This document shows, one piece after another, positions 9,040 through 24,541 of a stretch of DNA of 24,542 nt. The notes below the pieces were generated by a model. It made no database searches. It was given only the letters and a program-made list of their open reading frames with translations, and was not told the DNA's origin. Source of the DNA: a virus. Position 1 is the first letter of the stretch; each line of letters opens with the position of its first letter. Made by a program: the position numbers and the translations under genes. The stretch covers positions 1 to 24,542 of the IMG/VR virus record IMGVR_UViG_3300024255_002023, one strand, 5' to 3'.

Positions 9040-9059
9040 GTAGTTAACAAAAGTAAACT

Positions 9060-10211
9060 CTATTTATTTTTAACACTTTCGCTGACTTTTTTCCATGTTT
9101 GATTTGTTTCAGTACCACAAAACATACTACATACTCTCAATCTTTTGTTTGTGATGTCATTATCTCGCCAATTGTCTGGCCAATCAGTTTGGAATATTTT
9201 ACTATTAACAATAGACTCTAATGTGTTGTTATTCAAACTAATCTTATCACGGCCTCCACTGTTTACAAATTCTCTAAGTTGTACAGCTTCTGGCGTACCA
9301 GGTGCATATAATTTTCCTGCTGTCATACAGCAAGGAAATACCAAGCCTTCTGATGTTATAAAAATACTTCGCTTATTAAGTACTTGGCAATCAATACAAG
9401 TATTACCCAACTTAACTTCCCACTCATTCAATGGAGTTGATGCATTGTATTTAAATTTAACATGTTTGTTTTTTGTATCTGGATTTTGATTACCGTCAAC
9501 AATATCTTGAATTATTTCTGTATTATTAGACTTTCCATCAGGTGCATGAATACTATATAGGAAATTGTTTTGTTCATTGTATACACCAAAACTAGACTTT
9601 TTATTATTGTTAATCATTGTATCTTCGAATCCAAATGCTTCCTTTGCATAAAATTTAGTGATTCCTATCTTCTCTGCTAGTTGTCTAGCTTCTTCAACTT
9701 GATGTTGGTTGTGTTTAAAAACTAAAAACTCCCATTTGCTATGACCCGGACCGCTAGCATAGCTTTCCATTGCTGTAATAATTTTATCCCATTTGGTGCC
9801 TCTTCTGTAGATCCAGTTTGTATTTTCTAAACCGTCGACACTAAATGTTAGATGTCCATTGGTATTAATTATCTCACTTAGCTCAGCCCAAAACTCAGGA
9901 GTTCTTCCGCTGGCGTTAGTATTCATAGTAATTTCTATTTTTGGATTAATGTCCTTTGTGTACCTTAGTATATCCAACAACTCAGGATTTGTCATTGGAT
10001 CACCATAGTTTCCACACAAACTAATACCTCTAAGATTTTTTAGAAAGTCTAGGTTAAACCAATCTTTGAACTGATTAAATGTAATGTATGTTTCTACCAT
10101 ATTTTCAACTTTTTGTCCGCCAGAATATCTTCTGTTGCATATAGCACATAAAGCATTACACAAGCTGCTCGCTTCTAAATCTAAATATTGGAGTTCATTG
10201 AATGTGTACAT
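9060..10211 (-). CDS. Radical SAM protein with C-terminal SPASM domain
   Basis: This 383-residue protein has the standard order of SPASM enzymes. The radical SAM cluster motif is near the N-terminus (C18-x3-C22-x2-C25 in SSLCNALCAICNRR). A GNYGDP block (67-72) replaces GGEP. MNTNASGR (96-103) and FSVDGL (123-128) mark later barrel strands. The C-terminal cysteine-rich domain has C272, C275, C294, C295, C361 and C365 (GNTCIDC, FPCCM, VCSMFC), enough for at least one auxiliary Fe-S cluster. SPASM enzymes mostly modify peptides or sugars by radical chemistry; the substrate is unknown. It is the last gene of the long minus-strand run and overlaps the SGNH hydrolase gene by 17 bp. Its architecture differs from the eight upstream radical SAM genes, whose cysteine-rich domain is N-terminal. 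Confidence 0.88.
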   Translation of the reverse strand: MYTFNELQYLDLEASSLCNALCAICNRRYSGGQKVENMVETYITFNQFKDWFNLDFLKNLRGISLCGNYGDPMTNPELLDILRYTKDINPKIEITMNTNASGRTPEFWAELSEIINTNGHLTFSVDGLENTNWIYRRGTKWDKIITAMESYASGPGHSKWEFLVFKHNQHQVEEARQLAEKIGITKFYAKEAFGFEDTMINNNKKSSFGVYNEQNNFLYSIHAPDGKSNNTEIIQDIVDGNQNPDTKNKHVKFKYNASTPLNEWEVKLGNTCIDCQVLNKRSIFITSEGLVFPCCMTAGKLYAPGTPEAVQLREFVNSGGRDKISLNNNTLESIVNSKIFQTDWPDNWRDNDITNKRLRVCSMFCGTETNQTWKKVSESVKNK

Positions 10212-11076
10212 TTATTTTTTTCCAAATATTATCACTAGCAATTGAAGTACCTTCAGTGTTCCAATGTGCATCAGTATCTGAAAGCCAATAGTTTCTAACA
10301 TTGGGTAAAATGTATTTTATTTTTCTTAGGTTGCTAGATTGTTCTAATTTACTAAGTTGCTCACGAAATATGGTTTTATCTTGGTTATTAAGCCAGTGTA
10401 AACATCTATCAGGTAACCAATAATAGATAGGTATATTTGTCGCACGTGATATCCAGTATAATCTTTTAACGGATAATTGTAAATTTATTAAATTTGTTAC
10501 TGGTGTCACTTGGTATTGATAATAATGTTCCCATTGTTGTTTCGCATACTCAAACACTTCTGGAACGCTGGAAGCCCGAATACGTTCTTTAGAAATATGA
10601 TGATTAGGTACTAATTTTTCAACCCATTGATTGTTATTATCAAATATACTACTATCTGGCTTATCACCAATCTGTGTATACTCGGTATTATAATATATGG
10701 TATCTCTTAATCCATCAGTTAGTCCAACAAAAATCACAGGACTATCTTGATGTGTGTTTATCCATTGTTCTAATCTCATTAAAATATCGACATTACTAGA
10801 TCCAGGATTAGCAAGATTAAGATAACAGTTCTTAGGGTCTAATTTAGATAAATTAGCGTCGATAGTTTCATTATGAGGCAAGCCTTGTCCAAATATAAAG
10901 CTATCTCCAAATAAAGGAATAACCAATCCTTCATTATTCACATATTTTGTTATGTCAGACCTAGTAGGTATATCATATTGCCAATTCTCTTCTGGGGAGT
11001 GAGGACCGATTGGTAATCCCTTCGCTTGCCCGTGCCATTTAATATCTGAAAATATAGATAGCTTATTACTTTTCAT
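10195..11076 (-). CDS. SGNH-hydrolase-like protein (possible O-acyl esterase or acetyltransferase)
   Basis: From the chosen start this is 293 residues. Block I is IPLFGDSFIFGQG (53-65) with nucleophile Ser59. ANPGSSNVD (89-97) fits block II. The catalytic Asp/His pair is near the C-terminus in DAHWNTEG (Asp269, His271), a DxHW form like that of the alginate O-acetylation proteins AlgX/AlgJ. Such proteins add or remove acyl groups on polysaccharides. There is no signal peptide, so it would act in the cytoplasm. The frame extends to a Met at 11124 deep in the upstream gene, but the ATG at 11076 has TTGGAAG at good spacing and gives an 11 bp overlap like the other junctions here. It lies between two radical SAM genes with both ends overlapped. 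Confidence 0.75.
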   Translation of the reverse strand: MKSNKLSIFSDIKWHGQAKGLPIGPHSPEENWQYDIPTRSDITKYVNNEGLVIPLFGDSFIFGQGLPHNETIDANLSKLDPKNCYLNLANPGSSNVDILMRLEQWINTHQDSPVIFVGLTDGLRDTIYYNTEYTQIGDKPDSSIFDNNNQWVEKLVPNHHISKERIRASSVPEVFEYAKQQWEHYYQYQVTPVTNLINLQLSVKRLYWISRATNIPIYYWLPDRCLHWLNNQDKTIFREQLSKLEQSSNLRKIKYILPNVRNYWLSDTDAHWNTEGTSIASDNIWKKINVHIQ

Positions 11077-12250
11077 TGAATTCTTCCAAAAAATCTTGTA
11101 TGTTGTGTCCACGAATTTTATCAAGCCGCAGTGTATATTCTAACGCATGTTTCCATTTTTCTGGTCTGTCTGGACCGCCAAACATATTTGTTAACTCATT
11201 TACTTTGTACTCTGGAAAAGAGTTATGTAATTTTGTATGTACAAGATCTCGCATTTCCTTGGGAAGTACTGCTGGACTTAGAATAGCTGGATCGTATACA
11301 TAGTTATGGTGTACCCATACTCCATGTTCTCTATGAAAGAAGTCATAAAAGTCGCCTAAAGTACTATAGTTCATAAAGCTCACGGTTTGTGTTACGTCTA
11401 GTTCAAAATCCTCTTGTTTAAGACGCAGGAAATTTTTCATTACATCGTCCCATTTGGTAGGATATCTAATATATTCATTTCTCTTACCCAAGTCATCTAT
11501 ACTACAACTAACCTTTACATGATCAAATTTTCTCCATAACTCAATAACTTTCTCATTCATTAATGTCATGTTAATATTGTACCATAGCTTAATATCAGTT
11601 TTGCCTAATTCAACAAGTCGTTCTAAGAACTTAAAGTGCTGTTTGATTAACATAGGCTCACCACCATTAATATAAAACGTTTTTACATTATCACAATGTT
11701 TGAGTAAATCTTCCCAAAACTCTTCACGTTCCGGCCAACGAAAGCCTTGCATTGTATTATAATCAGTTAGTTTGAATGATAAACTATTTTGTAATTTGTC
11801 ATAATCATTACGCCACTTACTACTACTTGCCGGATTGCATGTTCTACAAGCAACATTACAAGTATTACCCAGACGTAGCTCTACAAATTCTAGTTGTACA
11901 TCTTGTATGTAGCCTTGCGCATCAGTTGCTAATTGAGCTACATCTTGTGTATATTCGGGATAATTTTTTATTTCCTCTAGACGTTTACTAGTCATACCTT
12001 TTGCTTCTTCGCTAAAACAACGCATACATGCTTTAGGCTTTTTACCTTCCAATACCTGCAATCTTGCTTGTTTAAATGTATCACTATTCATAGTATCATG
12101 TACAGTATCAACATTTAGATTAAAATACTTGTTGTCTGTTCTACTACTGCTGAGTGCCTGTCTGTGATCAGCAATACAACAATGAGTAACACCACCGTGC
12201 GGGTGTGTTGCTAAGTGTTGAAATAACAGGGGGCAAAATGTATTACTCAT
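11066..12250 (-). CDS. Radical SAM protein with N-terminal twitch domain (small subfamily, copy 5)
   Basis: This 394-residue protein has a cysteine-rich N-terminal twitch module (C6, C24-C25, C75-x2-C78) followed by the radical SAM core: C131-x3-C135-x2-C138 in NTCNVACRTC, an SSSKW signature just after it, NGGEP (195-199), a SIDD strand and a NEYIRYP segment. The twitch cysteines probably bind an auxiliary Fe-S cluster. The C-terminus (LDKIRGHNIQDFLEEFNEK) is a reduced form of the tail shared by this set. Its twitch lacks the PW of CxxPWxH, having CPLLFQH. The frame is open to a Met at 12280, but the ATG at 12250 has GAGGA six bases upstream, overlaps the previous stop by 8 bp and matches where the paralogs begin. 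The substrate is unknown. Confidence 0.88.
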   Translation of the reverse strand: MSNTFCPLLFQHLATHPHGGVTHCCIADHRQALSSSRTDNKYFNLNVDTVHDTMNSDTFKQARLQVLEGKKPKACMRCFSEEAKGMTSKRLEEIKNYPEYTQDVAQLATDAQGYIQDVQLEFVELRLGNTCNVACRTCNPASSSKWRNDYDKLQNSLSFKLTDYNTMQGFRWPEREEFWEDLLKHCDNVKTFYINGGEPMLIKQHFKFLERLVELGKTDIKLWYNINMTLMNEKVIELWRKFDHVKVSCSIDDLGKRNEYIRYPTKWDDVMKNFLRLKQEDFELDVTQTVSFMNYSTLGDFYDFFHREHGVWVHHNYVYDPAILSPAVLPKEMRDLVHTKLHNSFPEYKVNELTNMFGGPDRPEKWKHALEYTLRLDKIRGHNIQDFLEEFNEK

Positions 12251-13427
12251 AAAATTCCTCAAGCTCTGGCAAAATATCATTTAACGATTCAGATCGTATT
12301 TCATCCAGTTTTCGAGACCAACTTACAAAGTAATTAAACTTATCTACTTTTTTATCTAGCAAAAATTTCTTGTATGCTTCTAACTGGATAAAATGAGTGT
12401 CTGTAATATTATAATCTCGTATATACTTATCTACCTTTTGTAGTGCTATTTGTAATACAGAATCAGGCAATACTTGTGCCCTTAGATGTTCAGGAAATTG
12501 TACAATGTTAATAAAAAAATCATTTTTTGTTACCCATTTTTTATCAATACAATACTGAAAAAAATCAATGCAGTGTAATGCATTATAAGCACTAACAGTA
12601 CAGTTTATTTTAAAATCAACTTCTGGACTAGTTGCTCTTAGATGCTCTATGTTATTCTCAATATCTTTCCACACTGTGCCACGACGAATATATTCAGCAT
12701 GCTTTCCGTAACCATCTAAACTTGCTTCTACTCTAACACTTTTAAAATGCTTCCATAGATCAATCACATTATGTTGTTTATATACGAGCTTGCTCAAATT
12801 ACTGTTATAACTTAGTTCAATATCTGTTTTGTTATTTTCAATAAGATATTCTAAGATTCTATAGTGCTCATCCATTATTAATGGCTCACCACCTGCAAAG
12901 TAAATTTTTTCAACAGTATCAATCCAAGTTTCAATATCATCCCAAATTTCTTCAATCGTATTTTTTACTCTCGTAATACGTGGCCAAGAGCCTTCGTTCA
13001 TTTGTTCCCATTCGTCCTTCCACATACTACTAAAGTCTGGTCCACAGCTTCTACACTTAAAATTGCATATGTTACTAAATCTTATATCCATATACGACAT
13101 ATCCACTTGTTCAACGGTGCCATCAGGCAATGTTGAATCGATATTTAAAAATTTATGGCTAAATGATTTGTTCATGTGTTGGCGCATACTAGTGCTACCA
13201 AAACGTTCTGTTTCAAAACATTTATTACATGCAGAATGTTTTTTATTTGCCAACATTGTTAAACGTAATTCTTTCATACGCTCACTGTTCCAAATTTCTG
13301 TAAAGCTAGACTCACGTGAATTACCAACACTATAATCATACGATGCTAAACAACAGGGATAAACTTTGCCATTAGCAAAAGCATGTAAGTGAATCCATGG
13401 GAGTATACACATGTTATCTTTCATCAT
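12243..13427 (-). CDS. Radical SAM protein with N-terminal twitch domain (small subfamily, copy 4)
   Basis: This 394-residue member has the clearest twitch module: C7 in MCILPWIH, then G20 and C25-C26 in GKVYPCC, the helix FTEIWNSERMKELR (42-55), and C67-x2-C70. The radical SAM core has C121-x3-C125-x2-C128 in NICNFKCRSCGP, SSMW, AGGEPL (178-183), SLDG and AEYIRRG. The C-terminus LPELEEFYE matches the shared tail. The start overlaps the upstream stop by 14 bp; ATG ATG at 13427/13424 leaves a one-codon uncertainty, with AGAGAG upstream. The N-terminal module closely resembles the C-terminal SPASM motif of the 9060-10211 protein (GLVFPCCM), as if the same domain had been moved to the other end of the core. 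Confidence 0.9.
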   Translation of the reverse strand: MMKDNMCILPWIHLHAFANGKVYPCCLASYDYSVGNSRESSFTEIWNSERMKELRLTMLANKKHSACNKCFETERFGSTSMRQHMNKSFSHKFLNIDSTLPDGTVEQVDMSYMDIRFSNICNFKCRSCGPDFSSMWKDEWEQMNEGSWPRITRVKNTIEEIWDDIETWIDTVEKIYFAGGEPLIMDEHYRILEYLIENNKTDIELSYNSNLSKLVYKQHNVIDLWKHFKSVRVEASLDGYGKHAEYIRRGTVWKDIENNIEHLRATSPEVDFKINCTVSAYNALHCIDFFQYCIDKKWVTKNDFFINIVQFPEHLRAQVLPDSVLQIALQKVDKYIRDYNITDTHFIQLEAYKKFLLDKKVDKFNYFVSWSRKLDEIRSESLNDILPELEEFYE

Positions 13428-14586
13428 AACTCTCTTTTATAATGCTATAAAGCTCTGGAAATGTTTGTATGAAAGATTCTTTACGGTATTGATCTGCTCC
13501 TCTGGTTTCTTGTACAAAGTTAGTAAATTGTTGATGGTCACCTGGTTGTTGTAAATGATTAACAATAGGTACAAGTGACTCGTCTGTTAATTCATTTGAA
13601 ATTTTTGATTTATACTCTTGTGGTATGTGCCTAATATCGTAGTGTTGTGGATAATAAACTATGTTATTAAAGATATATGTGTCAGGGAATTGGTTTAAGT
13701 ATTTGTGAATCCTGGGCAGATAGTATATGTTTAGTGTACTAATAGTCACAGTAAAACTAATACCTAGTCGTACTCCCTGACTTTGTTGAAGTTCACTAAA
13801 CTTTCTAATATTATCGTCTGCTAGATTCCAACTTTTTCCATGGCGTATATAATTAAAATGATCTCCTATACCGTCTATACTAATGTTAAGTCCAACTGTC
13901 TCAAAATTATCCAGCATTTTGTTTACAAAATCTTCATCAAACACTGTAGCGTTTGAACTAAAATTAAGACTAATGTGTTTACTATTTCCATTATCAATTA
14001 GCATGTTTACGAGTTTTCTAAAGTCTTTACTGTACAACGGCTCACCGCCCATTATTTCTAATCTTTGTACTGTTTTACTCCAGTCATCCAACTCAGTCCA
14101 CATCTTACTTGTAATTTTATTGTTAAAGTCTACAGACATCTCTCGATGATCAAATTTGTGAACACGATCATTCCACTCAGTATTCCATTTGGTACTGTGT
14201 GTCGGGCCACAAGTTCTACACTTTAGATTACAAACATTACCAATGTTTATTTGTAGGTCTTTGGGTATAACTTGTAAATTATTATAATCTACATTTATAT
14301 TAAACGTCTTAAAGATATCATTGTATATTAAACGCTTACTTTGTTTACCATTACGTTCATCATTCCAACAAGTATTACAGTTACTAGGATATTTTTCCTC
14401 TAACATATCTTTTCTAAGTTGAATCATGAACTCTGAATTTATAATGTCGTGTATGCTATCATCAGCAACATTCATTTTACGTTGGTCTTGTACAATAAGA
14501 TCTTTAGCAATACAACAACTTCTAACAAACCCACTAGGCTCACTACTAGTATGCCCCCATGCTAAAGCACATAGATTCTTATTCAT
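13414..14586 (-). CDS. Radical SAM protein with N-terminal twitch domain (small subfamily, copy 3)
   Basis: From the ATG at 14586 this is 390 residues. Its twitch cysteines are C6 (LCALAWGH), C24-C25 (RSCC) and C70-x2-C73 (CNTCWNDE). The core has C119-x3-C123-x2-C126 (NVCNLKCRTCGP), STKW, MGGEPL (179-184), NFSSNAT, SIDG and FNYIRHG. The C-terminal tail is FIQTFPELYSIIKESYDER. The frame is open to a Met at 14622 inside the upstream gene. The ATG at 14586 aligns with the paralogs, overlaps the previous stop by 8 bp (ATGAATAA) and has GGTGG upstream, so it is preferred. As with its neighbours, catalysis is expected to be reductive SAM cleavage with an extra cluster of unknown role. Confidence 0.88.
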   Translation of the reverse strand: MNKNLCALAWGHTSSEPSGFVRSCCIAKDLIVQDQRKMNVADDSIHDIINSEFMIQLRKDMLEEKYPSNCNTCWNDERNGKQSKRLIYNDIFKTFNINVDYNNLQVIPKDLQINIGNVCNLKCRTCGPTHSTKWNTEWNDRVHKFDHREMSVDFNNKITSKMWTELDDWSKTVQRLEIMGGEPLYSKDFRKLVNMLIDNGNSKHISLNFSSNATVFDEDFVNKMLDNFETVGLNISIDGIGDHFNYIRHGKSWNLADDNIRKFSELQQSQGVRLGISFTVTISTLNIYYLPRIHKYLNQFPDTYIFNNIVYYPQHYDIRHIPQEYKSKISNELTDESLVPIVNHLQQPGDHQQFTNFVQETRGADQYRKESFIQTFPELYSIIKESYDER

Positions 14587-15973
14587 ATCTACACCACCAG
14601 TCATACAACTCAGGGTCAGCACGATAAATGTCTTTTAATCTAAACTGTTCTTGTCTAATTTGATCTAACCTATCTTGATAACCTTTACCGTTCTTAAATT
14701 TTTGCTCATGTGTGTCTGGAAATTGTTCAGCAAATGTCGGACGATTTTTCATTTCACTAAGTGTATTTACAAGAGTCATTTGTCGATGTGTAGCACGTGG
14801 TTCCATATACGCAAGTAATTGATCAATTTTACGATCTAATATATGCCTTGGCCATGCAAACGGACTCATTACAATGTCAGGATGAAATGCAAACATAATT
14901 TTAGTTTCCATACTTACATCTAATTCTAAACTTAAATCAAATAAGTCACGTAAACTAAACATACCTGGACCAGTAATAGTTAAATCAAAACGCATTTTTT
15001 CTTTGCCGCCAGGTAGTGCTAATCCTTGCTTAAAGTTATCAAGCCATTCTTCCCATACAATGCCTTTGCGAATAAACTCTACAATATCTCCTGTACCATC
15101 AATGCTTGCACACATTAGCCAATCTTTAAACTGTGGTAAGTAATCATACAAGTTTTTTCCCTTGAAGTCAATCCTTGATAAATTACTATTATAACGCAAG
15201 TAACAATTTTTCGCACTGCCGTTAAGGGTCATTTCTTCTAGTGCCCACCAATGCATATCATACATTAGTGGCTCGCCGCCTACCCAATATATTTCTTCTA
15301 CAATACCATCACTGATAGCTTGTTTAAATTCAGGCTCAGCTACATGCTTTTGGAAGTTATTCATTTTCTTTTTAACTTCAGGAATCATAAATGGTTGGTG
15401 TTCAGGGCTCCACAAATCATGTTTCTTTTTTTCAGCTTCCCATGCACTGCTCAATTGCTCGCCGCACATTCGACATTTAAAGTTACACAAATTACTATAA
15501 CGATAGTCAAATGATATAGTAGGCATAGTTGTATAGCCATCATCATCTGTATTATCAAATGCTTCTTGTATTTTGTCTTTGAATAAGACACCAGTAAACC
15601 ATTTACGATATGAACTTAACGACAATGTATCATCATTGCATACATCACATTGACTAATACGCTCTCCTGCCATTAGTTTTTTTCGTATGTCACGCATGTA
15701 TTCACTGTTCCAATGTTCTTCTAGTGTAAGTGGATTAAACTTATCAGCGTCTGTCTCACTTTCACGTATTTTCCCATACTTTTCGTCATTGGTTGCATCT
15801 ATATATTGTTTTTGAAAGGTGTGTTCTTCTCTACTGGCACAACATAATCTGCGCTCTCCTTGTGGACTAATATAGGTGTGTGTCCACGGTGCCATACAAA
15901 AAGTCTTGTTTTCACTATCCTCAGCACAGCTTCCATCGTTATTCCATTTTGGTTTAATTTTTGTCAATATCAT
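14579..15973 (-). CDS. Radical SAM protein with N-terminal twitch domain (small subfamily, copy 2)
   Basis: At 464 residues this is the largest of the downstream five. It has an N-terminal extension of about 20 residues with one extra Cys (C16), and a longer linker inside the twitch module: C26 in FCMAPWTH, C44-C45 in RRLCC, then C109-x2-C112. The core has C163-x3-C167-x2-C170 (NLCNFKCRMC), SSAW, VGGEPL (231-236), RYNSNL, SIDG and VEFIRKG. The C-terminal tail ends DPELYDWWCRYE. The start at 15973 overlaps the upstream gene by 20 bp and has only a weak TGGA-type ribosome site, so its translation may depend on coupling. Confidence 0.9.
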   Translation of the reverse strand: MILTKIKPKWNNDGSCAEDSENKTFCMAPWTHTYISPQGERRLCCASREEHTFQKQYIDATNDEKYGKIRESETDADKFNPLTLEEHWNSEYMRDIRKKLMAGERISQCDVCNDDTLSLSSYRKWFTGVLFKDKIQEAFDNTDDDGYTTMPTISFDYRYSNLCNFKCRMCGEQLSSAWEAEKKKHDLWSPEHQPFMIPEVKKKMNNFQKHVAEPEFKQAISDGIVEEIYWVGGEPLMYDMHWWALEEMTLNGSAKNCYLRYNSNLSRIDFKGKNLYDYLPQFKDWLMCASIDGTGDIVEFIRKGIVWEEWLDNFKQGLALPGGKEKMRFDLTITGPGMFSLRDLFDLSLELDVSMETKIMFAFHPDIVMSPFAWPRHILDRKIDQLLAYMEPRATHRQMTLVNTLSEMKNRPTFAEQFPDTHEQKFKNGKGYQDRLDQIRQEQFRLKDIYRADPELYDWWCRYE

Positions 15974-17171
15974 ATTCCATAAACTCAGGCCATAGTTTTT
16001 TCCAACTGTTATTTCTTCTTATATCTAATTTAGATAGAAATTTTAACCCGTTTCTAAAATGCCATAACTCTGGCTCTGCACTATTCATATGTTCTAAGCA
16101 AGCATCTACTACTTTTCTTCTTTCATCAGCTATATCTAAATTATCTCTGTACTCTGAAAGTTCTGTAGTATACATATCTTTGATAGGTTTGGGTAAATTA
16201 ACAGATGAAAATCGTTTAGGCTCTACTGCCATATTATATGTAAACTGCTGACTTCCCTTAGGCGCACGCCAATGAAATGGGTCCACATGCATCTGATCAA
16301 CAAGATAATCTAAGAATTTTGGTATATTCCTTATGCTTAAATTTGTTATTGTAATTTGTGGAAGTACATGTACTTCTGGCATTTCGTTTTTTATTGTGTG
16401 CCAGTTTTTTACAATCTTCTCCCAATTACTTCCGTAGCGTTGATACTCACCAATGTCGTCGACTGCATCGATACTTGCTCTTATACTAACCCATTTAAAT
16501 TGTTTCCATAAGTCTAGTATATCTATTTTTTTGTATTTTAGTGTTGACAAGTTAGTGTTATACTCAAGTTTTATATTAGACGCCAATCCTCGGCGCACTA
16601 CTTCATTTAATAATGTGTAATGATATGGTGTCATCAAAGGCTCACCGCCTGCAAAGTAAATTACTTCTAGTTTGTTATCAACAATTGTTAAAATGTCTTG
16701 CTCTGTATTATTGGATAGTGTAATAAACTTACTGGCACCCTCTTTTACTTGATATTTTAGTGCAGATCCGTCTTCATACCAACTACTACTAAGAGCATGC
16801 CCACACATTACACAAGCCATATTACACATATTACTACTTCGAATATCTAAATATCTTAATGCAAAGTCAGGTGTTGTATTTTCGGTTATTAACTCGCCGT
16901 AATCATTATTCAACCGTGTTCTTAGACTGTTCCCATTTCCAAATTTTTCTTGATTATAACAAAACTTACAAGCATCTTGTAATTTACCATCGAGAAGATC
17001 TTGTCTAAAATTACTCGCAGTATCACTTCGCCAAGCATCTTGTACAGACATTTCATTTGTATTTCCGTAGTTAATACTTTGTGCAGTACAACAAGGATTT
17101 ACTTGTCCGTCAGGGTGTATGTATAAGTGTACCCAAGGCGCAGCGCAAATTACTCCATTATCTTCTTTCAA
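15954..17171 (-). CDS. Radical SAM protein with N-terminal twitch domain (small subfamily, copy 1), TTG start
   Basis: This 405-residue protein has the twitch set C9 (ICAAPWVH), C27-C28 (NPCC) and C68-x2-C71. The radical SAM core has C116-x3-C120-x2-C123 (NMCNMACVMC), SSSW, AGGEPL (174-179), EYNTNL, SIDA and GEYQRYG, where the usual EYIR is changed to EYQR. The C-terminal tail is LDIRRNNSWKKLWPEF. The first codon is TTG at 17171, overlapping the previous TGA as TTGA. The strong ribosome site AGGTGGAG seven bases upstream supports it, and no in-frame ATG lies before the first cysteine. The gene follows directly on the acidic-tailed paralog. Confidence 0.88.
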   Translation of the reverse strand: MKEDNGVICAAPWVHLYIHPDGQVNPCCTAQSINYGNTNEMSVQDAWRSDTASNFRQDLLDGKLQDACKFCYNQEKFGNGNSLRTRLNNDYGELITENTTPDFALRYLDIRSSNMCNMACVMCGHALSSSWYEDGSALKYQVKEGASKFITLSNNTEQDILTIVDNKLEVIYFAGGEPLMTPYHYTLLNEVVRRGLASNIKLEYNTNLSTLKYKKIDILDLWKQFKWVSIRASIDAVDDIGEYQRYGSNWEKIVKNWHTIKNEMPEVHVLPQITITNLSIRNIPKFLDYLVDQMHVDPFHWRAPKGSQQFTYNMAVEPKRFSSVNLPKPIKDMYTTELSEYRDNLDIADERRKVVDACLEHMNSAEPELWHFRNGLKFLSKLDIRRNNSWKKLWPEFMEYDIDKN

Positions 17172-18700
17172 ACTTCAACTCCACCTAACGCATCCGTTTT
17201 TGTATCCCATCCGCCTATTGCTTCGTGTTCGTCATCACCACCTGTATATTCTTCAGTAGTGGCTGGATCACCAGCTCTATCATTTACAAAGATAGTTTCT
17301 TTATTTTCGATTTGTTTACGAGTTGGCACAATTGCATCAATACTTTCAAACCATTCAGCAAATGGACCTGGAAAAGTTTCTACAAAGTTTTTATTTCTAC
17401 GCACATCATATTGGGCAAAGAATGCTTTAAAATCGTTGTATAGTTTAGGCATATCTGCTGTGTTTTTGTGAGGAGTTTTTACAATGTCCAAATAGTCTAT
17501 AAGTCGCTGTACACTAGCACGTTCTCCATCATTTAACATTTGTTGAGGGCGTTCACTGTTAAACCATAACTGTAGCTTATCTTTATAGTGACGCTTAATT
17601 TCTACTGGAATAATTGCACAACTTTGAAAACTAGGAAAACGTAAAATGTTTAATGTCATAGTAGGCGCACGACGACCATAAGTTTCACGCAAGTCTAACA
17701 TTTCGTCCATAAACTCTGTAATAGTAGTTAAGCACAATGAATTGATTGTCATCATCATATGTAATTTAGATACATTTGATTCTTTAAGAACACGATGAAT
17801 ACTACTCATCCATAAATCATAATCTAGTCCATCACGTATATATTCTGCCTGTGGCTTTGTCGCTTCCATAGATGTGTAGATTTCAAAGTTAGGAACATGC
17901 CAAGACTTTTCAATTAACTTGTCTAATACCTTGGGTGTTTGTGGCGATAAGTTACTATTAATGGCAAACCTCATTTGTCTACCTCTGTCAGGATTTTGCT
18001 CGAACCAATCAAATAATTTCCATGTACCCGTATGCATAATAGGTTCACCGCCTGTAATACGAATCTCTTCTAAGTTATCAGCAAGTCCTTCTTCCCACCA
18101 TTTATGAAATGCCTGAATATAAGGATTGTCTTCTTGTTTCTTTGTTGCTGGTTCTGCCCAAGGAGCAGTATCTGAGAAATGTCCACGGCCGTCACTTTGA
18201 ATATTTTGATAAGCACCGTAGTCGTTGATGTCTTTAACCCAGGCTGTACTAAACGCTGGATTGCAGTATGAACATTTTAAGTTACACGCACGATCAAAAG
18301 AAATTTCAAGTGTACGCAACATAACATTATCGTCCCATGGCATCTCTGTACTCTTGGCTATATCTTTGTCTTTAAAGATTTCAGTTTTAAACACACGGTC
18401 ACTGATATGATCCTTTCCCATATCTTCAACTTTCCAACAGTATTCACACTCAGCAGGACGTTCGCCTTTGAGCATCATTTTTCTCATTTTTTTCTTATGA
18501 GATGTATTATGAATAGCAGTGTGATCTTTTTCAAGTTCATCCAATGGGATCCAATGTCCTGGTGGGTGATGGCAACTAGTAGTTTGTCCATGACCTAACC
18601 ATATAGTAGCATTATACCACTTAGCCGCACAATAACTAGTACTAATACTATCAATCATACGTTCTTTATATGCCTGTAATGATTCGCTGTGTTTACGCAT
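17168..18700 (-). CDS. Radical SAM protein with N-terminal twitch domain (large subfamily) and acidic C-terminal tail
   Basis: This 510-residue protein belongs to the second subfamily, in which the CC pair of the twitch is replaced by C-H-H-P-P: C24 (YCAAKW), C43 (SCHHPPGHW), and C85-x2-C88 (CEYCWKVED). The core has C139-x3-C143-x2-C146 (RACNLKCSYCNP), STAW, ITGGEP (215-220), AINSNLSP, then SMEA where the others have SIDG or SFDS, and AEYIRDG. The common tail YDVRRNKNFVETFPG is followed by about 54 further residues (457-510) rich in Asp, Glu, Gly and Thr, which look disordered and are absent from the paralogs. A 42 bp gap lies upstream. It is intermediate between the small subfamily and the 18743/20292 pair. 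Confidence 0.9.
   Translation of the reverse strand: MRKHSESLQAYKERMIDSISTSYCAAKWYNATIWLGHGQTTSCHHPPGHWIPLDELEKDHTAIHNTSHKKKMRKMMLKGERPAECEYCWKVEDMGKDHISDRVFKTEIFKDKDIAKSTEMPWDDNVMLRTLEISFDRACNLKCSYCNPAFSTAWVKDINDYGAYQNIQSDGRGHFSDTAPWAEPATKKQEDNPYIQAFHKWWEEGLADNLEEIRITGGEPIMHTGTWKLFDWFEQNPDRGRQMRFAINSNLSPQTPKVLDKLIEKSWHVPNFEIYTSMEATKPQAEYIRDGLDYDLWMSSIHRVLKESNVSKLHMMMTINSLCLTTITEFMDEMLDLRETYGRRAPTMTLNILRFPSFQSCAIIPVEIKRHYKDKLQLWFNSERPQQMLNDGERASVQRLIDYLDIVKTPHKNTADMPKLYNDFKAFFAQYDVRRNKNFVETFPGPFAEWFESIDAIVPTRKQIENKETIFVNDRAGDPATTEEYTGGDDEHEAIGGWDTKTDALGGVEV
17179..17186 (-). promoter_or_regulatory. Strong ribosome binding site that fixes a TTG start
   Basis: AGGTGGAG on the minus strand lies seven bases before the TTG at 17171, within the last codons of the upstream gene. 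It is among the best Shine-Dalgarno matches in this run and supports the unusual start codon of the 405-residue radical SAM gene. Confidence 0.75.
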
Positions 18701-18742
18701 ATGTTTACTTGTCCTTCATTCTATAATACTTCTATTTAATTT
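18701..18742 (-). promoter_or_regulatory. Possible internal late promoter in the radical SAM operon
   Basis: This 42 bp gap is the only sizeable space in the minus-strand run. On the minus strand it reads ATTAAATA (18733-18740), six of eight matches to TATAAATA, then a stretch containing AAGGAC about 11 bases before the ATG at 18700. A weak internal late promoter could give extra expression of the downstream genes. The match is imperfect and such strings are frequent in AT-rich DNA. Confidence 0.25.
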
Positions 18743-20281
18743 CTAAGATGATGTATAACAATCATTCCACCAACCACTAAGCTCTGGAAATACTTCAATA
18801 AAGTTTGTATTTCTTCTATGATCAATTTGATTAAAATATTCCCAAAACTGTTTCTGCCGAAGTTGCAATTCATCTTCACTGATCGATTCTGCTCCCGACT
18901 TAATCCATGCAATGTCCCTTTTAACTTTTTCAATTTCATGATCTAAAAATCCATGAAAAGTTGTATCATAATCTTCTTTGGCTCGGTTACTTTCCATAAA
19001 TTCTACAGCATCTTCCATATACTTCATTACCTCAGGTATATAATGTATGTTCTGTGCAGACATCCATGTAGGCTGCCTAAGATAAGGTATATCAAAATAT
19101 ATACGTTGTCTCTGATATCTCACAAATGGACCTCGGTGTTTTCCTGTTTCATCAATAGGAGAATCATTTACAATATTTTGATTATCAAATCCAAACTCTA
19201 CTCGAAGATCTAATATCATTTGTAAGTATTGTTGTATTCTCGGAATACTTAGTAAGTTAAATGTGTTAATAAAAGTGACGCTGGTTCCTGTAGTCTCAGA
19301 TAATATGCGCTTTGTATTCTTTAACACAACATCATAATCCATACCAGTACGAATGTATTCAGCCTGTTCTCCTACACTATCAAAACTAACAAACAAATTA
19401 AAATGTTTGATAGCAGGTGCAACAAAAAAGTTATTATCAGTATAAGGATTAATTTTGTTTTTATCTTCCCAGATCCTTGTTGTTTCTATCTCTTGAAGAT
19501 GTTCAACAAATTTATCAAAAAGTTTAGGTTGAGGAGGACACATATTACTAGTAATACTAATTTCAATATCTTGATTAGGATTGTCGTTTACATATTTTAA
19601 TACTTTGAATGTATTTTTATCCATGAGAGGTTCGCCACCTGTCATACGAAATATCTTCAAATCTTTGTATAGGTCAGGCCACCACTTCCAAAATGCTTCC
19701 ACATATGGGTTTTCTTTTGCAGCGCCTTTAATCGGCATCAGTCCTATTTTGTCTAAATGTTCTTTATCATTATGCACAAAGTCTGTTAAGTGGAATGCTC
19801 CATGATCGTCAATCTCTTTTTCCCATTCAGTACTCAAATGCGGACTACAATATGTACACTTGAAATTACATGCTTGATTAAAATTTACCTCTACGTAACG
19901 TGGATTAATGTTTTCATCCCAACTGCCTTCCAATACCTCATTCCAGCCGTCAGTTCCTACCCATTCTTCCCCACTTCGATAATGTCTATCACTCAGATCC
20001 CCTTGATCTTCTAATTTCCAACAGTAACTACATCCTGCTGGCCTTTTACCTTCAAGCATTTCTTTACGCTGTAATGCTTTTTCTTGAGTATTGTGTAATG
20101 CCTTAGGATTATTTTTTAACTCACTAAGCGGTATTTTATGCGTAGGTGGATGATAACAGCTCTGAGTCAGTCCTTGCGGTAAGTGCAGACTAACTTGTAG
20201 CCACTTAGCCATACACATGCTAGGACTAATATCATTTAGCTTTTCTTTAGTACGTTGTGCATTAGAAAGATAATCTTTCAT
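18743..20281 (-). CDS. Radical SAM protein with N-terminal twitch domain (large subfamily, duplicate B)
   Basis: This 512-residue protein is a close paralog of the 20292-22034 product. Twitch cysteines are C23 (MCMAKW), C42 (SCYHPPTH) and C84-x2-C87 (GCSYCWKLEDQG). The core has C138-x3-C142-x2-C145 (QACNFKCTYCSP), STEW, MTGGEP (213-218), ITSNMCPPQPKLFDKF, SFDS and AEYIRTG. The common tail is IDHRRNTNFIEVFPEL followed by SGWW. Relative to its partner it lacks an insertion before the SFDS strand, but it has its own short insertion later (PIDETGKHRGP). The start has AAAGGA about seven bases upstream and lies 10 bp after the partner's stop. DNA identity with the partner is high over the core. Confidence 0.92.
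   Translation of the reverse strand: MKDYLSNAQRTKEKLNDISPSMCMAKWLQVSLHLPQGLTQSCYHPPTHKIPLSELKNNPKALHNTQEKALQRKEMLEGKRPAGCSYCWKLEDQGDLSDRHYRSGEEWVGTDGWNEVLEGSWDENINPRYVEVNFNQACNFKCTYCSPHLSTEWEKEIDDHGAFHLTDFVHNDKEHLDKIGLMPIKGAAKENPYVEAFWKWWPDLYKDLKIFRMTGGEPLMDKNTFKVLKYVNDNPNQDIEISITSNMCPPQPKLFDKFVEHLQEIETTRIWEDKNKINPYTDNNFFVAPAIKHFNLFVSFDSVGEQAEYIRTGMDYDVVLKNTKRILSETTGTSVTFINTFNLLSIPRIQQYLQMILDLRVEFGFDNQNIVNDSPIDETGKHRGPFVRYQRQRIYFDIPYLRQPTWMSAQNIHYIPEVMKYMEDAVEFMESNRAKEDYDTTFHGFLDHEIEKVKRDIAWIKSGAESISEDELQLRQKQFWEYFNQIDHRRNTNFIEVFPELSGWWNDCYTSS
19668..19722 (-). repeat. 55 bp exact repeat, copy in duplicate B
   Basis: These 55 bases are identical to 21409-21463. Both copies encode the same part of the radical SAM core, from the NPYVEAFWKWWPDLY segment just before MTGGEP. 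The stretch is flanked by further, slightly diverged identity, which marks a recent duplication or gene conversion between the two neighbouring paralogs. Confidence 0.88.
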
Positions 20282-20291
20282 TTAATGTCCT

Positions 20292-22034
20292 TTAATATTT
20301 TATTTTTTCGCAGTCTTTCCATACTGCACTTAGTTCAGGGAAAGTTTTAACAAAACTTGTGTTACGTCTGGAATCTAGTTGTTTAAAGTAATTGTAAAAT
20401 TGAAACTTTCTATTTTTTACATCGTCTAATTTAATCTTAGAATTTTTAATAATTGAAATGTTTCTTTTTACTTTAGCTATTTCAAACTGTGTAAACCCTA
20501 ATCCTTGCTCCGTCTCTCGGTTTTGCTCCATAAACTTAACACAATCGTCTAGAATATCTAGCATATCTGGATAAAATACAGCAAAGTCTGCATTCATCCA
20601 AATTGGGTCGCTGAGTAGTGGAATATCAAACCAAATTCGACATAGGTCTTTACTTTCACTAAATTTCATTTTAAGTTCTAGTATATACTCTAAAAAATGT
20701 TTGAATCCAGTGATACTTAAAAAATTGAAAGTGTTAATAAAAGTTATCTCACTGTTTTTTGTATTACGTAAAAACTTATGTACGTTATCTTGAAACACTT
20801 GCCAATCTAATCCATTACGTATATATTCCGCTTGTTTTCCCACACTATCTATACTTGCAAAAAGCATAAAGTTTTTGATTCTGGGAACGTTTAACATGAC
20901 TCCCTGATTGCCTTCTTCATCGCTTGGTGGTGCACCCAAGCACTTCCATTCTAGATTTTCATTTGGTTTAAACCAAATAAGTGTATACAAAAAATCTCCA
21001 TGTTCGGTTCTGTTTCTACTGTCAAATTCTAATCCAATATCTTCTAGTGTTAAACGCTGTTTTTTTGGATCAATAGTAGGATCGTCTACAGTAGAGTCAT
21101 CTAATACAATAGCCCTTTGCCAATTCTGCCAATTAATAGCTGGATCAGATTCAGCAAAATAAGTAACTTCTTTTAAAATTCCACGATCAATCCAGTCATT
21201 ATAAACTTCTTGTGTAATATCATTTTCGATATTTTTAATATTAGTTATAAACTGATCAAAAAGTTTAGGTTGAGGAGGACACATGTTACTAGTAATACTA
21301 AGCTCAAGTAATTGATTAGGATTCTTGTTTACATAATCTAATACTTTGAATGTATTTTTGTCCATAAGGGGCTCACCGCCCGTCATGCGAAATACTTTAA
21401 GCTCACTATATAGGTCAGGCCACCACTTCCAAAATGCTTCCACATATGGGTTTTCTTTTGCAGTGCTTTTAATGGGCATTAGTCCTTTATCAACAAGTGC
21501 ATCAATATCATTATGTTTATTATAGCCTATATTAATTGGGCCGAATTTGTCAATCTCTTTTTCCCATTCAGTACTCAAATGCGGACTACAGTAGGTACAT
21601 TTAAAATTGCAACTTTGGTTAAAGTTTACTTCCACATAATGAGGATTAATGTTTTCATCCCAACTGCCTTCTAAAACTTTATCAAATCCAGATTGCGCCC
21701 AGCCTTCTCCACTTCGATAATGCCTATCACTCAGATGTCCTCGATCTTCAATCTTCCAGCAATAACTGCATCCTGCGGGTCGTTTTCCCTCCCACATTTT
21801 TTTTCTTTCAAGAACTTTATGTACAGTATTGTGAAGTGCTCGTGGATTATTTTCAAGCTCAGATAATGGTATATTGTGTACAGGAGGATGATAACAACTT
21901 TGTGTAAGCCCAGCAGGTAAATGTATACTAACTTGTAGCCACTTAGCCAAACAAAAACTAGTACTAACAGAGGACAACTGTTGTTTAATTTCATCTTCGC
22001 CATCAAGATTACGTGAAATTGAAAATTTAACCAT
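20292..22034 (-). CDS. Radical SAM protein with N-terminal twitch domain (large subfamily, duplicate A) with ~90-residue insertion
   Basis: At 580 residues this is the largest of the eight and the first transcribed. Twitch cysteines are C28 (FCLAKW), C47 (SCYHPPVH) and C89-x2-C92 (GCSYCWKIEDRG). The core has C142-x3-C146-x2-C149 (QSCNFKCTYCSP), STEW, MTGGEP (217-222), ITSNMCPPQPKLFDQF, SIDS and AEYIRNG. The common tail is LDSRRNTSFVKTFPEL. Compared with duplicate B, about 90 extra residues (roughly 274-380) sit between MCPPQPKLFD and the SIDS strand; they include several Trp and Asp residues and match no domain I know. It starts 5 bp after the glycosyltransferase-like gene, with only a weak ribosome site. 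Confidence 0.92.
   Translation of the reverse strand: MVKFSISRNLDGEDEIKQQLSSVSTSFCLAKWLQVSIHLPAGLTQSCYHPPVHNIPLSELENNPRALHNTVHKVLERKKMWEGKRPAGCSYCWKIEDRGHLSDRHYRSGEGWAQSGFDKVLEGSWDENINPHYVEVNFNQSCNFKCTYCSPHLSTEWEKEIDKFGPINIGYNKHNDIDALVDKGLMPIKSTAKENPYVEAFWKWWPDLYSELKVFRMTGGEPLMDKNTFKVLDYVNKNPNQLLELSITSNMCPPQPKLFDQFITNIKNIENDITQEVYNDWIDRGILKEVTYFAESDPAINWQNWQRAIVLDDSTVDDPTIDPKKQRLTLEDIGLEFDSRNRTEHGDFLYTLIWFKPNENLEWKCLGAPPSDEEGNQGVMLNVPRIKNFMLFASIDSVGKQAEYIRNGLDWQVFQDNVHKFLRNTKNSEITFINTFNFLSITGFKHFLEYILELKMKFSESKDLCRIWFDIPLLSDPIWMNADFAVFYPDMLDILDDCVKFMEQNRETEQGLGFTQFEIAKVKRNISIIKNSKIKLDDVKNRKFQFYNYFKQLDSRRNTSFVKTFPELSAVWKDCEKIKY
21409..21463 (-). repeat. 55 bp exact repeat, copy in duplicate A
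   Basis: This is the partner of 19668-19722; see that entry. A second shared stretch of about 40 bases near 21552-21590 (against 19809-19849) covers the STEWEKEID segment just after the cluster motif. Confidence 0.88.
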
Positions 22035-22039: not shown

Positions 22040-23020
22040 CTATTCAATACTGTCATTGACTTGTTCTTCACGTACCATTGCGCCCAATCTATGTGGATTC
22101 TTGTATACGGTTTTAAAGAATCTACTGCCAACCCTTCCCATATCTGCAATTTCTAAGTCTAATACTGAACGAAGGTTTTCGCCTATCTCTATAGTTTTTG
22201 CTGTTACCTTGTCAATATCCCATGATACACCAGTGTTTACACACAATTCATTTCCGCCCTCAAACTCTGGGAATAACTCAGTTGTAAAGTAATTACTAAG
22301 CCAATCAAAGTCTCTGACATTTTTCCAATCCCATGCATTACGTTGTATATTAGTCATTTGGCATCCAAGTCGTGCACCATACATTGCCCAAATTCCATTA
22401 GTAACGTCTTCGCCAACACTCATCCATACCATCAGTCTCTTATAATTTTCACGATATATGTGTTTAAGTTTTGCAGGATCAACTACATTGCCATCTTCTA
22501 GTCCCATCTTAACACCTTCACGAAACCCTGCACGCCAAGCCTGTAGTGGGCTACCATTGTTCATTACATCACAGTAAATATTATTCATTTGTACATAGTT
22601 AATATTCCAACAAAAGTCAACCTGTGCTCTTTTATCACTTGCAGGGGCGGCTTCATGTGTACGCATACGGTTAACAACATCAACGGGCCAACATTTAATA
22701 CCGCCGTTACCATATACCAAACCATTTACTGTATTTTTACCTGCCCAACTAATGACGTCATTGCTTTTGATTCGGTCCATATCAACTTCTACATTGAAAA
22801 AATCTTCTCTTACTACATTATCAGCATCAATAGTAATAAATCGTTCAGTGTCACTCATAGCAGCGGCGGCTTTATGTGCGGCGTCACTTCCCCATACACC
22901 ATGACTTCGTTTAGCCCAAGGCGCCTTTTCAAGTAAGTCTGAATAATTTTTATCAGCATTAGGCTCGTCATAGCTAATAAAAATTATATCAAATTCAGTA
23001 ATTGGTACTAAATTTGTCAT
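22040..23020 (-). CDS. GT-A glycosyltransferase-like protein
   Basis: This 326-residue protein looks like a nucleotide-sugar-dependent GT-A fold enzyme. An N-terminal strand FDIIFISYDEPNADKN (10-25) is followed by GVWGSDAAHKAAAAM (41-55) and a strand ending in the metal-binding type motif FITIDADNVV (61-70, Asp65-x-Asp67). GNGGIKCWP follows, where acceptor-side residues are usual. There is no membrane segment. The start overlaps the previous stop as ATGA, and GAGGAG eight bases upstream is a near-ideal ribosome site. It directly precedes the eight radical SAM genes in the same transcript, which suggests glycosyl transfer is part of the same process. The sugar donor and acceptor are unknown. 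Confidence 0.62.
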   Translation of the reverse strand: MTNLVPITEFDIIFISYDEPNADKNYSDLLEKAPWAKRSHGVWGSDAAHKAAAAMSDTERFITIDADNVVREDFFNVEVDMDRIKSNDVISWAGKNTVNGLVYGNGGIKCWPVDVVNRMRTHEAAPASDKRAQVDFCWNINYVQMNNIYCDVMNNGSPLQAWRAGFREGVKMGLEDGNVVDPAKLKHIYRENYKRLMVWMSVGEDVTNGIWAMYGARLGCQMTNIQRNAWDWKNVRDFDWLSNYFTTELFPEFEGGNELCVNTGVSWDIDKVTAKTIEIGENLRSVLDLEIADMGRVGSRFFKTVYKNPHRLGAMVREEQVNDSIE

Positions 23021-24003
23021 ATTGTAATCTCCTCTTGTGCAAACGTAATATTGCGTATATTGTCTGATACTAATATTTTACATTGGTCTACATTATCAGT
23101 CAAGTTTAAATTTATTTCTTGTTTCCAACCTATTTTTTCAAATGGTATTTTTATTGTTGATAATAAGCTATTTGGATCTTTTTTAGTAATATAAAAAGTC
23201 AAGTCTCCAAAAATTTTATGTTCCTGTGGATCACTAAAATTACTACGCATAACCCATCCATTAGTTGTATTACTTATTACAAATGTCGGTACTTGAATTT
23301 GTCCAGGTTCATAAATTTTAGCATGATATCGTTTATGACTTTTATTACTTGTATACTCAGCACCAACAAAATATTCCTTAGTTCTAATAGAATAACTTTT
23401 AAAAATTCTTCTTGTTAAAATTTGTATATCATCTAAACTACATATCGTTCTCAGATGACTCATATCAAAAATACGAAATCCATCATTCATAAGATCAATA
23501 GGATCAATTTCATATGTAGACATCAGATAGCTTGGGTTCTTTTTACTAATCAGATAAAATTTAATTTTACTATACTGACTTTGCGAACTTTGTTTTTTAA
23601 CGTGTCGAGCACCAGTCATTCTATATACTGTGTCTTGATTAAAATTTACTTCCATTTTCCAATCATTTGTATACAAGATAATGTTAACGTCACAATTTTT
23701 GTTATGATACTCAGGTATCATACTAAGTTGGTCTTCTTCCTTTTTAATGGTAAGTTTTTTACTTTTCGCCATCAAGACGAATCCATCTTTACTCTCAGAC
23801 ACAACAAAACGGCGTGGGTCTAATTCCCCAAGCATTATTTTTCTAGCATTGTCGTCATTAGTCTTAAGATAAGAATGCTTGCTAGGTTTTGGTTTATTTG
23901 AAATTTCAACAACCTGACCATCCCATTCTTCATAGTATACAAAGTAATCAGCTGGAGGTTTATCCACTATAAATTCACTTAGTGACAGAAAGTTTGAGGT
24001 CAT
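23017..24003 (-). CDS. Protein of unknown function with an internal repeat
   Basis: This 328-residue protein has no recognised domain. It contains a partial internal duplication. FVVSESKDGFVLMAK (66-80) and KIKFYLISKKNPSYLMST (146-163) correspond to FVISNTTNGWVMRSN (241-255) and DLTFYITKKDPNSLLST (267-283). The repeats are rich in beta-strand-forming residues, suggesting two similar beta domains. The N-terminal segment YFVYYEEWDGQVVEISN resembles short beta modules seen in phage structural or baseplate-associated proteins, but this is only an impression. GAAAG lies upstream of the start at 24003, which is inside the previous gene (29 bp overlap). Its stop overlaps the glycosyltransferase-like gene by 4 bp. 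Confidence 0.6.
   Translation of the reverse strand: MTSNFLSLSEFIVDKPPADYFVYYEEWDGQVVEISNKPKPSKHSYLKTNDDNARKIMLGELDPRRFVVSESKDGFVLMAKSKKLTIKKEEDQLSMIPEYHNKNCDVNIILYTNDWKMEVNFNQDTVYRMTGARHVKKQSSQSQYSKIKFYLISKKNPSYLMSTYEIDPIDLMNDGFRIFDMSHLRTICSLDDIQILTRRIFKSYSIRTKEYFVGAEYTSNKSHKRYHAKIYEPGQIQVPTFVISNTTNGWVMRSNFSDPQEHKIFGDLTFYITKKDPNSLLSTIKIPFEKIGWKQEINLNLTDNVDQCKILVSDNIRNITFAQEEITI
23029..23034 (-). promoter_or_regulatory. Ribosome binding site for the GT-A gene
   Basis: GAGGAG on the minus strand lies eight bases before the ATG at 23020, within the last codons of the upstream gene. It supports that start and translational coupling through the ATGA overlap. Confidence 0.7.
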
Positions 24004-24541
24004 CTATTATTTCTTTCGTTATAAATTGCTCGTCACCGTAATGAATAATTCCAGAAGACAATTTATGATTTTCTATAATTATATCACCATCATCAGTGTA
24101 CCAACTGTTAAGCATTTCTGTCCAGTTTTTTGGAATATCAGAGTGCCATAATCCTTGACTACGATTATCAAGATCATAAAAATCATCCATCCAAATACCA
24201 ATGTTATCTTCTTGGTTTAGTAAGTATGTTACGATATTTGTTAAAACATTCTTATTAAAAGTTTCTGGTCTTTTCTCATTGAATATTTTTGCATACATAT
24301 CTCGCCAGTTTTGAAAAACTGGATCTGCCATTTTAAACCATTCAATAGCCTCATCAGTTGATTTATCAAAGTATATCAAATGACTATAATGTTGTGATAG
24401 TTTGTAATGACTTTCAAATTCAAATTTACTGGTTTTCTGTGCAATTCCATTTCTAAAATTTCTAGCAACAATAGGCATAGCTATACTTTTGTTTTTAAAT
24501 TGTTGCCAAAAAAGGTCTATATCAACATTTAAAAATAACAT
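23975..24541 (-). CDS. Protein of unknown function, possibly incomplete at the right edge
   Basis: The visible 188 residues end at a stop at 23975. The ATG at 24541 is one base from the window edge, so it may be the true start or an internal Met of a longer protein. I see no known motif. The sequence is polar, rich in Trp, Asp and Asn (IEWFKMADPVFQNWRDMY, WHSDIPKNW), with no signal peptide or membrane segment. It is the most upstream visible gene of the minus-strand run, and its end overlaps the next gene by 29 bp. The promoter of the run therefore probably lies outside the window. Confidence 0.55.
   Translation of the reverse strand: MLFLNVDIDLFWQQFKNKSIAMPIVARNFRNGIAQKTSKFEFESHYKLSQHYSHLIYFDKSTDEAIEWFKMADPVFQNWRDMYAKIFNEKRPETFNKNVLTNIVTYLLNQEDNIGIWMDDFYDLDNRSQGLWHSDIPKNWTEMLNSWYTDDGDIIIENHKLSSGIIHYGDEQFITKEIIDDLKLSVTK

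Follow-up and report, generated by a model that had tools for sequence, protein, structure and literature searches.

What would a virus do with nine radical S-adenosylmethionine (SAM) genes in a row? Enzymes of this kind usually work in their pathways alone or in groups of a few. The question is posed by IMG/VR virus record IMGVR_UViG_3300024255_002023, which was analyzed over its entire 24,542 bases and is referred to below as the window. As a first-pass annotation of the sequence had stated, nine intact radical SAM open reading frames (ORFs) form a single run on the minus strand (9060-22034), and eight of them, genes B to I, encode an N-terminal cysteine module. The array is tentatively interpreted here, at a little short of an even chance, as a multi-enzyme radical SAM pathway for surface-glycan tailoring, located in a host-interaction island of a large T4-superfamily phage. 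The sequences show which genes are present, that their motifs are intact and under purifying selection, that gene order is in part shared, and where in the genome the array lies; catalysis, serial action, a glycan substrate and a biological role are inferred. The twitch radical SAM genes are transcribed in the order I, H, G, F, E, D, C, B, and the genes of the run are:

20292..22034, minus strand: gene I, N-terminal twitch radical SAM protein, 580 aa, core carrying an insertion; CNFKCTYC at 142
18743..20281, minus strand: gene H, N-terminal twitch radical SAM protein, 512 aa, paralog of I
17168..18700, minus strand: gene G, N-terminal twitch radical SAM protein, 510 aa
15954..17171, minus strand: gene F, N-terminal twitch radical SAM protein, 405 aa; TTG start (longest ORF)
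14579..15973, minus strand: gene E, N-terminal twitch radical SAM protein, 464 aa; the best conserved paralog
13414..14622, minus strand: gene D, N-terminal twitch radical SAM protein, 402 aa; GTG start (longest ORF), though an ATG further downstream is likely
12243..13427, minus strand: gene C, N-terminal twitch radical SAM protein, 394 aa; structure predicted
11066..12280, minus strand: gene B, N-terminal twitch radical SAM protein, 404 aa
10195..11124, minus strand: SGNH-hydrolase-like protein (provisional), 309 aa, between B and A
9060..10211, minus strand: gene A, radical SAM protein whose SPASM-like Cys set is C-terminal, 383 aa

All eight proteins B to I exceed the NCBIfam NF033640 cut-off of 170 bits, with scores of 301.9-414.5 bits (C 414.5, B 358.3, F 343.9, E 327.6, D 314.7, G 312.4, H 308.6 and I 301.9, the last over two stretches). 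NF033640 is N_Twi_rSAM, the 'twitch domain-containing radical SAM protein' family. Because this curated NCBI subfamily, which includes bacterial members, already names the architecture, which the first-pass annotation had called unusual, its novelty is not supported. B to I share the N-terminal Cys module as well as CxxxCxxC, GGEP and a motif resembling EYIR. This motif reads EYIR in B, C, G, H and I, EFIR in E, EYQR in F and NYIR in D. SPASM (PF13186) scored over its cut-off at the N-terminal module of C, D, E and F, and B reached 21.4 bits against a cut-off of 21.5; at E 0.001 the module of G, H and I had no SPASM match. The Pfam Radical_SAM core was under cut-off in G and H and without a match in I. 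Gene A is a non-member of NF033640 (61.1 bits); it matched PF04055 over cut-off at 32.2 bits, and its C-terminal SPASM match of 20.6 bits lies under the 21.5-bit cut-off.

Conservation was examined in an alignment of 157 rows, picked by profile score and including the eight proteins of the window. CxxxCxxC was kept in 8/8 window paralogs and 157/157 rows, and the N-terminal cysteines C7, C26, C67 and C70 (gene C numbering) were present in 153, 154, 157 and 157 rows, respectively. The core Cys, the N-terminal CxxC, N210, S236 and R248 (the Arg of EYIR) were invariant. The radical SAM core of B to I should make a 5'-deoxyadenosyl radical, and the four-Cys twitch module would be expected to hold one auxiliary [4Fe-4S] cluster.

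In gene C the SPASM-type match spans residues 7-70 and the core residues 116-266. An AlphaFold model of this protein had a mean predicted local distance difference test (pLDDT) score of 95.5, and in structure searches its core matched the radical SAM enzymes viperin, anSME, BlsE, SkfB, MoaA and DesII. The same two building blocks, a radical SAM core and a twitch module, are found in BtrN, which acts on an aminocyclitol. Since positions 9-80 of the C-family profile, before the core, align with BtrN near its C-terminus (4m7t 183-257 of 270, E 9e-5), the domain order is swapped: the twitch is C-terminal to the core in BtrN, whereas the Cys module comes first in C. No BtrN structure was among the best 50 VIA-align matches listed for C.

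The paralogs are strongly diverged from each other. Most pairs had local identities of 19-32%; G/I reached 40% and H/I 72.5%, each of these two over about 262 N-terminal residues. In a tree of the 157 rows, built by a quick method that left 55/154 inner branches open, the window paralogs were scattered with 8 label changes and bacterial rows between them, and only H and I shared a small clade (5 rows, support 92). Because of this scatter, together with the identities, recent tandem amplification was rejected, H and I perhaps excepted. Each of B to I is a distinct old enzyme lineage, with H and I the closest pair, and the adjacency of eight genes of one subfamily is not due to chance.

The array is also intact and under purifying selection. 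A separately deposited 198-kb record, G001, aligned to the whole window at 99.1%, and C and H were matched at 100% in a 34.6-kb record. Compared with their G001 copies, the nine radical SAM genes of the window differed by 109 synonymous and 32 nonsynonymous changes, with ratios of nonsynonymous to synonymous rates (dN/dS) of 0-0.20 (I 0.20, G 0.035), and a pseudogene array was rejected on these values. Loss of the clusters or decay into pseudogenes among relatives, an outcome that the first-pass annotation had raised against itself, was not the pattern found: the cluster cysteines are nearly invariant and selection is purifying. One over-cut-off NF033640 match, in G003, carried an internal stop among the matches listed. 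Of the 109 synonymous changes, 48 fall in gene G, a possible sign of recombination in that stretch.

Is this arrangement peculiar to one virus? Relatives of gene H were encoded by 563 viral stretches, and 80 of these 563 confirmed stretches were kept. Gene order was counted in 32 representatives, taken at 90% H identity from 84 H-bearing loci; one of them is G001 itself, 31 had enough upstream flank and 28 had more than 8 kb downstream of H. The identity thresholds were our own choice (G 44%, E 55%, B 36%). Because the first count scored G only downstream of H, the order H before G was built into it, and a recount dropped that filter. A relative of the GT-A-fold gene described below directly preceded H in 16/31 representatives, and a G-type gene lay within 100 nt after H in 16/31. 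Among the 28, G was found in 18, E in 15 and B in 12. In the unfiltered recount G came after H in 18/18, G before E in 15/15 and E before B in 10/11, and the order H-G-E held in all 15 viral representatives with the three genes.

A nearly complete set is present in the divergent phage L058, which carries H-G-E-C-F-D-B-A (identities 55, 83, 91, 65, 50, 41, 78 and 61%, in that order) and a weak SGNH-like match (26%). Elsewhere among phages, best matches of the G type were 44-87% identical, with a few weaker ones at 27-29%, and gene E was 61-91% identical. Members of NF033640 over cut-off occurred in 17/17 large records, a value that is no frequency since the records were chosen through H. Among named phages, at E 1e-5, C and E matched Vibrio phages K566 and K567 only, neither H nor the GT-A protein matched any, and a DNA search with 9000-24542 returned none.

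Relatives of the NF033640 type were also found in Bdellovibrionota, Bacteroidota, Elusimicrobiota, Alphaproteobacteria, other groups and one Synechococcus. A scan of genome contigs with C alone confirmed nothing; the family alignment found the relatives. A single copy was present in 67/79 bacterial loci. Among 13 genomes chosen from these loci for copy counts, one Bdellovibrionia genome held at least 14 over-cut-off copies within 33 kb. A Bacteriovoracaceae contig from a metagenome-derived genome (L117) carries eight copies beside obgE and ribosomal L21, and in the order of this genome at least 31 of 57 genomes have an over-cut-off member, against 0/14 controls, among the matches listed. When L117 was compared with phage L071, five collinear reciprocal best hits were recovered, namely G, E, B, C and a fifth, D-like gene, with one additional gene between E and B in the phage. 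The fifth L117 gene has B as its best match in the window, and the tree puts it in the wider D clade. The ordered cluster, which the first-pass annotation had suggested looking for elsewhere, thus partly recurs in phages and in one bacterium, and such ordered recurrence of paralogs fits enzymes acting in series. In a Rhodobacteraceae bin (L125, 6314-7255) a GT-A relative lies just before four twitch radical SAM genes; for this reason L125 may be phage DNA in a bacterial bin.

The genomic position of the array was examined in G001. The capsid gene is absent from the window itself; the Gp23 capsid protein of G001 shares 71.3% identity with its counterpart in Pseudomonas phage PA5oct (287-kb genome), by which sequence G001 is a T4-superfamily phage. 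A Gp23-type major capsid protein was present in 13/17 large relatives including G001, some of which may be fragments. The G001 array starts about 7 kb past the gene for a 3,745-aa virion protein, which itself comes after a baseplate wedge gene. Between 102 and 149 kb, CxxxCxxC occurs in 21/49 ORFs, covering 27.4 of 47.2 kb, a large investment for a phage; outside this island it occurs in 3/161 ORFs. Of the 21 motif ORFs in the island, 18 match the family profile at E 0.001, one has a window copy that matches PF04055 and two have the motif only; at least 13 G001 ORFs exceed the NF033640 cut-off.

Other genes of the island were sought in a Pfam scan of 28 ORFs chosen from 43 profile-negative ones (95-152 kb, one of them cut). 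It found one each of a carbamoyltransferase, SIS, ribulose-phosphate 3-epimerase and UDP-sugar dehydrogenase, and one each of the APS kinase, TauD, Asp/Arg hydroxylase, nitroreductase and nucleosidase families. The nucleosidase, of the PNP_UDP_1 family, lies within the radical SAM island at 4467-5018 of locus L103 (G001 144467-145018); nucleosidases of this type can remove 5'-deoxyadenosine. PDB sequence searches with two G001 upstream genes, one of them cut, gave a single chance-level match and none.

Five further genes of the window lie outside the run:

22040..23020, minus strand: predicted GT-A-fold protein, directly upstream of gene I
23017..24003, minus strand: conserved protein with no family match, upstream of the GT-A gene and in the same place in several related loci
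23975..24541, minus strand: conserved upstream gene, truncated at the contig end; G001 has it at full length
2250..4127, plus strand: B12-binding-type radical SAM protein, 625 aa, in the same island on the opposite strand
1013..2248, plus strand: UDP-glucose/GDP-mannose dehydrogenase-type enzyme, 411 aa (PF00984 59.4 bits, phrog_9148 317.8 bits)

The predicted GT-A-fold protein has an invariant DxD and a model with pLDDT 89.4. Its N-terminal half is of GT-A type and aligned with B4GALNT1 at Z 10.4 (2.9 A over 138 residues, within residues 4-153); nucleotidyltransferases scored up to Z 9.4, Foldseek matches were weak with a template modeling (TM) score of about 0.3, and a PDB sequence search was without match. 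The conserved protein at 23017..24003 had no family match in Pfam or PHROGs. The tenth radical SAM gene reported earlier at 2250 is present on the plus strand (PF04055 63.8 bits), with a B12-binding PF02310 match of 25.7 bits, under the cut-off of 32.1.

Similar neighbors occur in other phages. The 103 neighbor proteins of 23 chosen loci, scanned as 40 cluster representatives, included an epimerase, a GDP-mannose dehydratase-type enzyme, NeuB, a carbamoyltransferase and FkbM in 1/40 representatives each. Near bacterial clusters, a scan of 41 chosen neighbors found GT1, GT2 and GT9 in 1/41 each and a carbamoyltransferase in 2/41, along with ten further radical SAM proteins. The clearest case is Vibrio phage K566, in which four relatives (202, 193, 154 and 142 bits, two of them over cut-off) adjoin two GT8 genes that pass the cut-off and a GT4-like gene that does not, and PagP is annotated about 2 kb further on. 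The first-pass annotation had left the substrate as a glycan or a peptide; the dehydrogenase, the GT-A fold, the sugar-type neighbors and K566 make up a partly glycan-type gene context, and the GT-A partner, these neighbors, the K566 setting and the BtrN resemblance favor, each of them indirectly, a glycan-tailoring pathway. The enzymes would most likely act successively on a surface glycan of the lipopolysaccharide (LPS) or O-chain type, or on its nucleotide-sugar precursors, by C-H chemistry such as oxidation, epimerization or deoxygenation. Proposed partners are the GT-A-fold protein, the sugar-nucleotide dehydrogenase and, less surely, an esterase. Such a product would be displayed on the virion or would change the surface of the infected cell, as a means, for instance, of keeping competing phages out.

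Several observations weigh against this interpretation. No substrate or reaction was found for any member of NF033640, and the best structural matches to C span many substrates, including anSME, SkfB and the sactipeptide enzyme 5wgg. No Pfam glycosyltransferase family was detected in the window proteins or the 28 scanned G001 island proteins. GT8 scored over cut-off in 0/18 records (the 17 large relatives and that of the window) and was rejected as a general array partner; Fe-S (iron-sulfur) supply was dropped in the same role, with an A-type Fe-S carrier in 1/17 relatives and the PNP_UDP_1 nucleosidase in 2/17. The loci were all selected through gene H, and among the 28 representatives G was absent within about 10 kb of H in 10, E in 13 and B in 16, so the gene set is not universal. 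The order of E and B is reversed in 1/11 representatives, and L058 places C, F, D and E in an order unlike that of the window. Finally, bacterial neighborhoods, scanned for 95 of 121 listed neighbors, are mixed and include housekeeping genes.

The main rival to glycan tailoring is the modification of peptides or proteins, in which the paralogs would act on a ribosomal peptide or on the giant tail proteins of the phage, one enzyme per site or bond. We consider this unlikely but a serious contender, as the structural matches include anSME, SkfB, SuiB, EpeE and ChlB, NCBIfam models of sactipeptide and other peptide maturases matched weakly, and the island comes after the genes for the baseplate and the giant virion proteins. 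The array, however, has no gap longer than 42 nt and thus no room for a separate precursor gene (elsewhere no systematic precursor search was made), and recognized neighbors are often sugar-type.

The variable gene sets, with 13/28 representatives lacking E and 16/28 lacking B, would also be expected if the paralogs were interchangeable enzymes for different host glycans, held in a hypervariable island and forming no single pathway. The island does resemble the hypervariable host recognition cluster of pelagimyophages, as far as that cluster is described in the text available (PMC7029224). Interchangeability is nevertheless improbable in view of G preceding E in 15/15, the five-gene collinearity with a bacterium and the near-complete L058 set.

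Synthesis of a soluble small molecule, either a viperin-like nucleotide analogue or a cofactor, directed against competing phages or host polymerases, is judged quite improbable. Viperin structures came top in Foldseek (E 3.1e-6) and in a PDB profile search (E 6.6e-7), and a nucleosidase lies within the same G001 island. Against this, the window proteins reached at most 44 bits with the viperin model NF038283, below its cut-off of 180, and the viperin structural match was confined to the core (query TM about 0.38).

Misassembly of a single repeated gene, also raised by the first-pass annotation, or a decaying duplicated array is scarcely credible and was counted as refuted, since G001 reproduces the array at 99.1%, the 34.6-kb record repeats C and H, paralog identity is low and dN/dS is 0-0.20, and nothing was found in its favor beyond the fact that tandem paralogs can in principle arise in this way.

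How much of the array is then new? The first-pass annotation is upheld as regards intact, distinct paralogs on one strand and a phage origin, here T4-like, and the paralogs recur in order elsewhere; novelty of the architecture is not supported. T4-like phages rich in radical SAM genes have already been published; a full-text literature search, with most subscription journals outside it, found no description of an ordered N-terminal twitch radical SAM array or of collinearity between an ordered paralog set and a bacterial array. The enzyme family and the type of phage island are known, and the ordered-paralog organization was found nowhere described. The NF033640 entry covers proteins like these but gives no array, order or function, whereas in the window eight old lineages adjoin.

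The following comparisons go as far as the text available from each source. The T4-like environmental viral genome TARA_ERS488813_N000010, reported in 2017, has 12 radical SAM genes (PMC5332604). It is likewise T4-like with many radical SAM genes and is set apart by its description, which stresses Fe-S assembly genes and does not mention ordered paralogs, whereas relatives of the window are mostly without the A-type carrier. Pelagimyophages have a hypervariable host recognition cluster by the tail genes, with glycosyltransferases, most commonly GT8, and radical SAM cassettes (PMC7029224). That cluster sits between VrlC and the neck gene gp14, and the G001 island follows the baseplate wedge and giant virion genes; G001 differs in having 21 motif ORFs in 47 kb and a capsid nearest to the PA5oct type. 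Group II Campylobacter phages carry six and five radical SAM genes (PMC3322345, PMC12398825) and, as here, combine several in one T4-related phage; in phage IBB_35 they are described as widely distributed and not as an array. Radical SAM genes have furthermore been noted in Tasman Sea phages (PMC7150976), Baikal viruses (PMC7678222), alphaproteobacterial phages (PMC10783043) and Baltic viruses (PMC9301287).

A bolder form of the glycan-tailoring interpretation is speculative and on balance doubtful: a virus-borne radical 'assembly line' of at least eight twitch enzymes, each performing one C-H step on a glycan of novel chemistry, in an ordered cassette common to T4-superfamily phages and Bdellovibrionota. 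If H-G-E-B(-C-D) is one pathway, it points to a novel natural product or glycan in many environmental phages. The array opens a way into a large enzyme family whose function was not found assigned in the literature, and K566, being a named phage, offers related genes for functional tests.

The transcriptional layout of the array and its lesser genes complete the description. Neighboring genes overlap by 4-59 nt, values that may be inflated because longest-ORF starts were used, and gaps of 42 nt (H-G) and 10 nt (I-H) occur. Of the earlier proposal of one co-translated unit, the single same-strand run is upheld and the overlaps are corrected. Promoter and terminator scans of the window gave no excess over chance, with 4 terminator sites against 5.3 expected. 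A possible G-H fusion was dropped because two stop codons, the TAG of H and a TGA in frame, interrupt the 1037-aa frame on which it was based.

The genes said earlier to trail the array are present in modified form: the SGNH-like gene lies between B and A, its name provisional, and the SPASM assignment of A falls below cut-off, as given above. Since neither Pfam, NCBIfam nor PHROGs recognizes the SGNH-like gene, its name rests on GDS and DxHW motifs read by eye, which we take to be those of this class; a weak PDB match was to 9otv (E 0.1). Its changes relative to G001 were 3.5 synonymous and 13.5 nonsynonymous (dN/dS 0.93). Compared with the radical SAM genes by Fisher's test, using counts rounded to 4 and 13, this gave p 1.9e-5, or 4.8e-4 without gene G, values that are rough because changes within one phage pair are linked. 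Finally, two pairs of unannotated proteins, 5683-6771 with 7723-9039 and 4139-5101 with 6746-7726, each appear related by eye and match nothing in Pfam or PHROGs.

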